NCBI GenBank assembly: GCA_022072085.1
Contig: JAJVII010000004.1
Span: forward strand, 1 to 64,000
Origin: Phycisphaerae bacterium
GTDB taxonomy: Bacteria > Planctomycetota > Phycisphaerae > JAJVII01
Reading direction: 5' to 3'
Length of the DNA stretch: 64,000 nucleotides
The stretch's first letter is position 1. Each line of letters starts with the position of its first letter. The notes under the pieces are model-generated. The model ran no database searches, was not told where the DNA came from, and saw only the letters and a program-made list of their open reading frames with translations. Shown piece by piece: positions 3,382 through 53,801 of the stretch. The translations under genes were made by a program, and so were the position numbers.

Positions 3382-4122
3382 TCAGTAACCATCGGGCACT
3401 TGGGTCGGGGCGTCCTCCTCCCGCATTACGCCGTCCCTTCCGATCATAGGTACGAATCGGCATTGCAGCACGTCCCGGTTTACGAAATCTCGGGTGCCGC
3501 TTCCTCGCGTGATCTGCGTCAGCGTCTGGACCGACCCGCTGCCGATGGGCCCGACGAAGCGCCCGCCGACCGCCAGTTGCTCCAGCAGACCGGCCGGGGG
3601 GCGCGGGGCATAGGCGGTCAGCAGGATCGCGTCAAACGGCGCCTCCTCCGGCCAGCCGCCCGAGCCGTCGCCGACGCGGTAGGCTACGCGACGATAGCCC
3701 AGCCCGTCCAGGATCAGCCTGGCCTGCTGCTGGAGTTCGGACAGGCGTTCGACGGTGAACACGCAGCCGGCTGGTTTGTCGTCGCGGCAGCCGACCAGGT
3801 CTGCCAGCACCGCCGTCTGGTAGCCGCTGCCGGTCCCGATCTCCAGCACGCGGCTGCCGGGGGCGAGCGCGAGGAGCTGGCTCATGAGGGCGACCATGTA
3901 GGGCTGGCTGATGGTCTGCCCGCCTGCAATGGACAAGGCTGAATCGTCGTAGGCCCGGCTGCGCATGGGCGGGGCGACGAACCGCTCGCGCGGGACGAGG
4001 CTCATGGCCCGCAGCACACGCGGGTCGCGGATGCCCCTGGCCGCCAACTGCGACTCGACCATGGCGGCCCGCAGGCGGGCGTATTCGGCGTCCCAGTCGA
4101 GTTGTCGGCGGAGCAGAGCCAT
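3382..4122 (-). CDS. pcm: Protein-L-isoaspartate O-methyltransferase
   Basis: MVESQLAARGIRDPRVLRAMSLVPRERFV and VLEIGTGSGYQTAVLA motifs. Confidence 0.92.
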   Translation of the reverse strand: MALLRRQLDWDAEYARLRAAMVESQLAARGIRDPRVLRAMSLVPRERFVAPPMRSRAYDDSALSIAGGQTISQPYMVALMSQLLALAPGSRVLEIGTGSGYQTAVLADLVGCRDDKPAGCVFTVERLSELQQQARLILDGLGYRRVAYRVGDGSGGWPEEAPFDAILLTAYAPRPPAGLLEQLAVGGRFVGPIGSGSVQTLTQITRGSGTRDFVNRDVLQCRFVPMIGRDGVMREEDAPTQVPDGY

Positions 4123-19314: not shown

Positions 19315-19324
19315 CTGCGCGGCG

Positions 19325-19496
19325 GCCTGTATTTGCCTGCATTTGCCTGTGTTTTAAGGCTATGGCCGACAAGATGTTACAAAACGCGTCGGCCAATGCG
19401 ATCTGACGCATTTGGCCGGGTCGCCTCGACTCCGGGTCGACCAAATCGGCCGCGTCGATCTGGCCGAAGCAGAGCCCCCTTAGAACGCAAACGGTG
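19325..19496. repeat. 172-bp dispersed repeat, copy 1
   Basis: Ungapped match to 53592-53763; 3 tandem decamers GCCTGTATTT/GCCTGCATTT/GCCTGTGTTT; hairpin CGGCCAATGCG..CGCATTTGGCCG; shared end CCCCCTTAGAACGCAAACGGTG. Confidence 0.92.
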
Positions 19497-19653
19497 ATTC
19501 GCGGGGCGCTGTCCGCAGCGTCCGCGACGCCGCATCAGGACATGCCTCGCCCGGTGTCCGGGGGGCGCCCGATTGCGCCGACCCGCCGCGACGGGCCTCT
19601 TCTACAGAGGCGGCGGAGCGGTTACACTGTCCGTTCCTCTTTGGGAGCAGCAC

Positions 19654-33187: not shown

Positions 33188-33262
33188 TGACCCCGTCGGG
33201 ATTTGAACCCGAGTTACCAGGATGAAAACCTGGTGTCCTAGACCTGGCTAGACGACGGGGCC
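33188..33262 (-). tRNA. tRNA-Glu (anticodon TTC)
   Basis: GGCCCCGTCGTCTAG...CCAGGTTTTCATCCTGG...TCGGGTTCAAATCCCGACGGGGTCA cloverleaf. Confidence 0.95.
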
Positions 33263-33372: not shown

Positions 33373-33446
33373 TGGGGGCGTTGGGACTTGAACCCAAGAC
33401 CTACTGATTAAAAGTCAGTTGCTCTACCAGACTGAGCTACGCCCCC
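33373..33446 (-). tRNA. tRNA-Lys (anticodon TTT)
   Basis: GGGGGCGTAGCTCAGTCTGGTAGAGCAACTGACTTTTAATCAGTAGGTCTTGGGTTCAAGTCCCAACGCCCCCA. Confidence 0.95.
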
Positions 33447-39730: not shown

Positions 39731-39790
39731 GGGGCGGGGACTTTCGCTTTTCACCGGCTGCGGCTGTGGCTATGCTGTAAACATGAATTG

Positions 39791-39853
39791 AGGCGATGGA
39801 GTTCGCCTTCAACCGGCACGCGGGCCGCGAGGCCCGGCCTGATGACTCCTACC
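39791..39853 (+). ncRNA. Fluoride riboswitch (crcB motif)
   Basis: AGGCGATGGAGTTCGCCTTCAACCGGC...GGCCTGATGACTCCTACC matches the conserved aptamer core directly upstream of crcB. Confidence 0.93.
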
Positions 39854-39926
39854 TTCGCGAAAGCGGGCGGGAGTCTTCGTCTTTTCAGGCGGCCCCGGCT
39901 GCCGCCCCCGAATTCGGAGCCCGATC

Positions 39927-40310
39927 GTGATCCAGATACTATGGGTGGCGCTGGGCGGCGCGGTCGGCTCGGTCCTTCGCTACGGCGTGACGGCGTTGTC
40001 CAAGGTTCTGTTCGAGGGGCGGTTCCCCATCGGCACGCTGACGGTGAACTTGGTCGGCTGCCTGCTGATCGGCCTGCTCACCCCGCTGATGCTGAACAAG
40101 GGGCTGGTCAGCCCCAACGTGCGCCTGCTCGTGCTGGTGGGGGTGCTGGGCGGGCTGACCACCTTCTCGACATTCGGCTACGAGACGTTCATGTTCATCA
40201 ACGACGGGCAGTGGGCCCGCGCCGGCTGGAACATAGCCCTCAACAACGTCCTGGGCATCGCCCTGGTGCTGGTCGGATACCGCATCGCCGAGCGCGTCTT
40301 CGGCGCGTGA
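39927..40310 (+). CDS. crcB: Fluoride channel CrcB/Fluc (GTG start)
   Basis: LGGAVGSVLRYGVT, PIGTLTVNLVGCLLIGLL, GGLTTFSTFGYETF. Confidence 0.97.
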   Translation: MIQILWVALGGAVGSVLRYGVTALSKVLFEGRFPIGTLTVNLVGCLLIGLLTPLMLNKGLVSPNVRLLVLVGVLGGLTTFSTFGYETFMFINDGQWARAGWNIALNNVLGIALVLVGYRIAERVFGA

Positions 40311-40324
40311 GCAAGGAGCGACGA

Positions 40325-40675
40325 ATGACCATTCCCGAAAACGGCCTGCTGCTGCGGATCTTCGTCGGTGAGTCGGACCGCTGGGAGCACAAGCCGCTCT
40401 ATGAGGCCATCGTGCTGGCCGCCCGCGAGGCCCACTTGGCCGGGGCGACCGTCCTGCGCGGCGCGATGGGCTTCGGCCGGCACTCGCGGCTGCACACGGC
40501 CAAGATTCTTCGGCTGAGCGAGGACCTGCCCATCGTCATTGAGATCGTGGACTCGGCTGACAAGGTCAACGAATTCCTGCCGACGATCGACCGCATGGTC
40601 GACGAGGGCCTGGTGACGATGGAAGACGTCCGCGTGATCAAGTATCGCGGCGGCCGAGGCGAGCCGGCTGAGTAG
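40325..40675 (+). CDS. DUF190 domain protein
   Basis: LRIFVGESDRWEHKPLYEAIVLAAREAHLAGATVLRGAMGFGRHSRLHTAKILRLSEDLPIVIEIVD. Confidence 0.92.
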   Translation: MTIPENGLLLRIFVGESDRWEHKPLYEAIVLAAREAHLAGATVLRGAMGFGRHSRLHTAKILRLSEDLPIVIEIVDSADKVNEFLPTIDRMVDEGLVTMEDVRVIKYRGGRGEPAE

Positions 40676-53432: not shown

Positions 53433-53591
53433 GGGGCCCCTTTCATCATGGGCGGTCCGAAGGCGGATCCGCGATTCACATTGTCCGTCGAGTTGGCCGG
53501 CGTGCCAAGCTCGCAAGCGGAAAAGCCGTCAAGCAGACAGACGTCGTCGGGCCCCGGGAGTTCCGGCGCGGCCCGGAGGCAGTCTGTAAGA

Positions 53592-53763
53592 GCCTGTGAT
53601 GGCCTGTATTTGCCTGTATCGTAAAGCTATGGGGTGCAGCGTGTTGCATCGGAGCCCGGCCAATGCGATTAGACGCATCCGGCCGGGTTGCATTGACTCC
53701 GGGTCGACCAAGTCGGCCTCGTCGATCCTGCGCAAAGGAAACCCCCTTAGAACGCAAACGGTG
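53592..53763. repeat. 172-bp dispersed repeat, copy 2
   Basis: Ungapped match to 19325-19496; decamers GCCTGTGATG/GCCTGTATTT/GCCTGTATCG; hairpin CGGCCAATGCG..CGCATCCGGCCG; same 3' end. Confidence 0.92.
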
Positions 53764-53801
53764 CTGTGGAGGAGGCCGTCGTGGCGCACACCCGGCGGGC
53801 G

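Follow-up and report, generated by a model that had tools for sequence, protein, structure and literature searches.

A lineage-restricted family of mosaic intergenic repeats with a helically phased decamer array in a Phycisphaerae bacterium

The window analysed here, a stretch of 64,000 nucleotides at the start of contig JAJVII010000004.1 of a Phycisphaerae bacterium (assembly GCA_022072085.1), contains two copies of a dispersed repeat, one located between a sulfatase gene and a purM-like gene and the other between two minus-strand genes. A preliminary description of this DNA had reported a gapless repeat of 172 bp with about three quarters of its positions identical, and this holds: 19325-19496 and 53592-53763 align without gaps with 130 of 172 identities (75.6%; BLAST E 2.2e-29), and mismatches cluster, as had also been reported, in a single block around alignment positions 46-70, where identity is 52%. 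All the shared parts named there, namely the decamers, AAGGCTATGG / AAAGCTATGG, the CGGCCAATGCG-N6-CGCATNYGGCCG hairpin, the GACTCCGGGTCGACCAA segment and an identical tail of 22 bp, are present in both copies; the tail word occurs twice in the window, compared to 0.04 occurrences expected from shuffles. Both copies are real but slightly longer than described, extending over about 19316-19501 and 53583-53769 (Table 1), and the count of three decamers per array has to be revised, as the canonical number is four: copy 2 has four good units, while copy 1 starts with a degenerate unit. Elsewhere in the window, we noted a fluoride riboswitch (RF01734, 47.3 bits) at 39783-39858 on the plus strand, just upstream of two small genes (39927-40310 and 40325-40675) that probably encode a split CrcB-type fluoride exporter, and two adjoining tRNA genes on the minus strand (33188-33262 and 33373-33446).

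Table 1. Parts of the two repeat copies, in coordinates of the window.
Feature	Position	Strand	Remark
Copy 1, phased decamer array	19316..19352	+	degenerate first unit, then three CTGYR units, exact 10-bp spacing
Copy 1, variable block (TTAAGGCTATGG ... ACAAAACGCGT)	19353..19389	+	least conserved part between copies
Copy 1, palindrome CGGCCAATGCG-ATCTGA-CGCATTTGGCCG	19390..19418	+	
Copy 1, conserved core segment CTCGACTCCGGGTCGACCAAATCGGCCGCGTCGATC	19425..19460	+	nested palindromes
Copy 1, tail CCCCCTTAGAACGCAAACGGTGATTCG	19475..19501	+	
Copy 2, phased decamer array	53583..53619	+	four CTGYR units, exact 10-bp spacing
Copy 2, variable block	53620..53656	+	
Copy 2, palindrome CGGCCAATGCG-ATTAGA-CGCATCCGGCCG	53657..53685	+	
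Copy 2, conserved core segment (ATTGACTCCGGGTCGACCAAGTCGGCCTCGTCGATC)	53692..53727	+	
Copy 2, tail CCCCCTTAGAACGCAAACGGTGCTGTGG	53742..53769	+	

These two copies are only two of about 37 in the genome. A BLAST search with copy 1 against its own genome (5.49 Mb in 72 contigs) gave 23 matches; a first sequence profile, built from 18 copies, added further ones, and a wider profile from 35 copies identified 37 distinct places at E < 1e-6. The same profile found four copies in G001, a genome of a second genus and the sole other representative of the taxonomic family among the genomes searched; in all four the array consists of four C[TA]GYA words spaced 10 bp apart. In the class (about 400 genomes) and the phylum (399 genomes), profile scans yielded borderline matches only, with few candidates scored per genome, so that weak relatives could be missed; of the weak class-wide model matches (E 1e-4 to 1e-3) two were read, and both lack the array. 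Collections of phages, plasmids and viral contigs contained no match to the element, the exact tail word gave six single matches in named genomes, none with the element, and literature searches turned up nothing relevant, either on the element's words or on comparable planctomycete repeats.

The members are intergenic and non-coding: none overlaps a called gene, and the sole apparent overlap (L128) falls in a non-coding stretch. They lie at unrelated loci with non-homologous flanking sequences, among ordinary chromosomal genes. In a set of 39 arrays or elements with called genes on their flanks, which includes four arrays without the A or B core described below and one G001 copy, 28 are codirectional with their neighbours, six divergent and five convergent. 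Two copies of the B type, L103 on contig C6 and L144 on contig C42, have several hundred bp of flank in common, pointing to either a segmental duplication or an assembly effect.

Each element forms a single, oriented unit of about 150-205 bp. From left to right, it starts with four CTGYRNNNNC units at exact 10-bp spacing, an array with CTGYATC at its end. A variable block follows, then the palindrome CGGCCAAYGCG..CGCATTCGGCCG, a core segment centred on TCCGGGT and CGGCCG, and a tail, in many copies with GCATTCTGTGA or GCAAACGGTGA at its end. Subtype A, to which both window copies belong, shows this full order, while subtype B (e.g. L113, L119, L120, L144) lacks the variable block and has a different centre and the tail CCCCTTGGCCCCCGGCCAAACGCATTCTGTGA. 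Intermediate forms exist (L111, L114, L143), and L135 and L140-L142 have a different left block. The family is thus a mosaic: array and palindrome are common to A, B and the intermediates, whereas left block, centre and tail vary among them. One copy, on contig C16 of this genome (L016, L023), is interrupted at ~113065-113359 by a MITE-like insert of nearly 300 bp. The insert has inverted ends of its own, 25 bp long (GGGGCTCTAACAGAACCTACGCGGG), and what looks like a duplication of CTTAG, so the element was in place before it arrived. Upstream of the arrays in L107, L119, L120 and L136 there are 7-bp periodic stretches such as CATTCGACATTCGACATTC, which at 4 of 35 elements, compared to 1 of 73 control windows, are too few to be claimed as a feature.

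The array is the most strictly patterned part of the element. Allowing one mismatch, the pattern CCTGYRNNNNCCTGYRNNNNCCTGYR has 62 matches in the genome, compared to two for a reversed control, and read by eye the matches represent 38 arrays, of which 32 are joined to an A, B or intermediate core. When 34 elements are superimposed by their last unit without gaps, information amounts to 1.8-2.0 bits in the CTG columns of units 2-4, compared to 0.3-0.7 bits in the spacers, and drops to background immediately left of unit 1, giving the array a sharp edge. CTG is followed by a pyrimidine-purine step in 99 of 100 units (TA 53, CA 30, TG 11, CG 5), with Y and R varying independently of each other. 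When A copies, which were found by core similarity, are compared with their nearest relatives, 2.5% of CTG positions have changed, against 56% of spacer, 42% of Y/R and 19.5% of core positions; the respective values for B are 1.2%, 43%, 28% and 7.9%, where array conservation is partly ascertained, since B copies were found partly via the array pattern. Changes at Y/R are exclusively transitions, without a single switch of purine/pyrimidine class in 108 A and 54 B comparisons (0/162 in total).

Array and core distances are uncorrelated in A (r -0.04, p 0.57), and the two halves of the core agree with each other (r 0.46, p 0.03). The free array positions are saturated, differing at 0.47 compared to 0.47 expected, and units are no more alike within an array than between arrays. 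As this leaves no signature of slippage, tandem slippage can be ruled out as the source of the present pattern. Taken together, the near-invariant CTG, the transition-only Y/R positions, the saturated spacers, the independence of array and core distances and the missing likeness within arrays indicate a constrained phased motif; judged by these substitution patterns, the array looks like a helically phased binding site rather than a decaying tandem repeat. The suggestion that the repeat might be a passive element does not fit such strict constraint.

The same array is also joined to other conserved segments. Six arrays lack the A/B core and fall into pairs: L106 (C15) and L108 (C25) have a 152-bp segment in common at 93% identity, right of the array and ending CGCGACCCTATATACGGAGGG; L104 (C8) and L105 (C13) have a segment of about 250 bp in common at 76% identity, left of a short array; and L109 (C31) and L110 (C40) each have two parS-like TGTTCCACGTGGAACA sites about 200-300 bp left of the array. 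The genes flanking L109 and L110 include truB, a phosphorylase-like gene and one for a DUF4159 protein. Coreless intergenic arrays of CTGYG words at 10 bp (…TATCTGTGTTCATCTGTG…; type TATCTGTGTTCATCTGTGTCCATCTGTGGTTA) are widespread in other genomes of the class and also occur on contig C9 of the window's genome (L203-L214, L218-L220). They resemble the arrays of the element in their 10-bp phase and CTGYR words, but have no common core, end CTGYGGYTA and have nearly fixed spacers (TNCAT); we found no paper on their words. A separate observation concerns G001, where a long, nearly perfect inverted repeat (L149:245-411) matches a miRNA model on both strands. Partial matches to it lie at L125 ~606-813, L112 ~723-925 and L109 ~3401-3534, and parts of it seem to recur at other loci of the window's genome, so that it may represent another repeat family, present in both genera.

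A stem-loop had been noted from the outset, and it seemed conceivable that the element is a structured non-coding RNA, either a multi-copy sRNA gene or a cis element, with functional hairpins and with decamers serving as words for RNA pairing or protein binding. The folding energy (MFE z-score about -3.5), the retention of the stem-loop in most copies (helix 1 is paired in 91% of cells), a few compensatory changes and the G-U-compatible, transition-only variation at Y/R would be in keeping with this. However, the reverse strand folds equally well (z -3.7), because the core is palindromic, the RNAalifold covariation term is about zero, and neither the covariation score nor the number of double changes stands out from shuffles (56/500 and 174/500). 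The preliminary description had named a lack of further copies and a lack of covariation among its grounds for refutation, and the outcome is split: further copies do exist, but covariation is absent from the proposed helices. APC-corrected covariation in the combined A+B alignment is dominated by subtype differences and was excluded as RNA evidence. Rfam gave no match at gathering or relaxed thresholds, only sub-threshold ones, such as Brucella sRNA 115 on copy 1, whose 22.5 bits fall far short of the cut-off of 115. Mixed orientation to genes also disfavours an RNA, with the reservation that an independent sRNA gene could take any orientation. With paired columns behaving like shuffled ones and both strands folding alike, the structured-RNA option is not supported, and we consider it decidedly unlikely.

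A different possibility is that the family is purely selfish, a MITE-like or REPIN-like repeat that was mobilised in trans by a transposase and has since decayed, its constraint reflecting only what the transposase needed. Dispersal among non-homologous flanks, together with the observation that proteins flanking three of the G001 copies have no match around the elements of this genome, does point to past movement or duplication, and confinement to one lineage, star-like divergence and the presence of three Y1 transposase genes in the genome are compatible with such an origin. Against it, the absence of terminal inverted repeats (TIRs) and flanking duplications reported for the two window copies extends to 31 copies, where direct flank matches (4.23, compared to 4.33 +/- 0.18 in shuffled flanks) and inverted ones (4.48 compared to 4.44) are at background. 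No transposase is found among the recurrent Pfam families listed (25 of 107) for 66 flanking proteins, and as no element lies beside any of the three Y1 genes, a Y1/RAYT association is ruled out. Moreover, passive decay predicts equal change everywhere, whereas CTG is near-fixed and spacers are saturated even between nearest copies. We therefore regard this scenario as rather unlikely, if a serious contender. The recombination site that had been suggested earlier, be it integron attC-like, a phage att site or a transposon end, finds some backing in the imperfect palindromes and the conserved right end, but no recombinase, target duplication or link to phages, plasmids or viral contigs was found, the neighbours are ordinary chromosomal genes, and in most copies the tail, read by eye in the alignment, lacks the attC pair GTTRRRY / RYYYAAC, which makes this option highly improbable.

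The explanation we favour, with moderate confidence, is that of a lineage-restricted, mosaic family of interspersed repeats that would act as DNA through a phased protein-docking array. Lying one helical turn apart, the decamers could all face a candidate DNA-binding protein from the same side of the helix and so serve as its docking site, with the pyrimidine-purine steps, two in each turn (TG and YR), as putative contact or bend points. The palindromic core may be a second recognition or extrusion element, and copies would have been dispersed earlier by an activity that acts in trans and leaves no target duplication. The docking may serve the host, as in BIMEs, which bind gyrase and IHF, or only the spread of the element itself; that constraint persists even among the closest copies favours, if anything, ongoing selection at single loci. 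Against the docking explanation, a wobble-tolerant RNA pairing partner (5'-UGCAG-3') would allow the same transition-only changes at Y/R. Spacer saturation could also reflect arrays of greater age than the adjoining cores; the array would then perhaps be a target, or a module open to exchange, and not a part of the element. One can also ask whether these are host-maintained chromosomal sites, at which a candidate nucleoid- or chromosome-organising protein would wrap or polymerise on the four phased CTG-YR words, with the cores specialising each site. The joining of the array to other segments, including the parS-like loci L109 and L110, and the related phased arrays of the class agree with such a role, which we nevertheless think unlikely.

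Dispersed intergenic repeats occur in many bacteria. While it is usually unclear what keeps them in place, fixed and free positions are here separated base by base, and the docking explanation turns this separation into a prediction: strict CTG, YR-only variation, free spacers and exact 10-bp phase specify a particular binding mode. Identification of the protein might further explain what the coreless phased arrays of other genomes in the class do.

Among known repeats, the enterobacterial repetitive intergenic consensus (ERIC) is of similar length, intergenic and present in both orientations, and the enzyme of its dispersal is unknown; by description, its sequence and hosts are unrelated to ours. 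To our knowledge, no phased array has been described for ERIC, and we know of no BOX module that contains a helically phased decamer array. Like BOX, with its modules boxA, boxB and boxC and more than 100 copies, the family described here is modular, short, intergenic, lineage-restricted and rich in hairpins (PMC3049150). BOX elements of Streptococcus pneumoniae, however, have TIRs and make target duplications (PMC3049150), both of which our family lacks, and for the same reason it does not qualify as a classical MITE. REPs are palindromes of 20-40 bp that carry a GTAG or CGTC tag and frequently form inverted doublets, the GTAG types often lying beside RAYT genes (PMC3733652). Our elements resemble REP, BIME and REPIN (PMC3116915, PMC3733652) as intergenic palindromic repeats in mosaic combinations, but differ from REP and REPIN in being single, oriented units of 150-205 bp that have no tagged short palindrome and flank no Y1 gene. 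The family works like BOX, ERIC and BIME and falls into the same broad kind, being neither a REP/REPIN, nor a classical MITE, nor, by the covariation test, a structured RNA; within that kind, it is best read as a new, lineage-restricted mosaic interspersed repeat.
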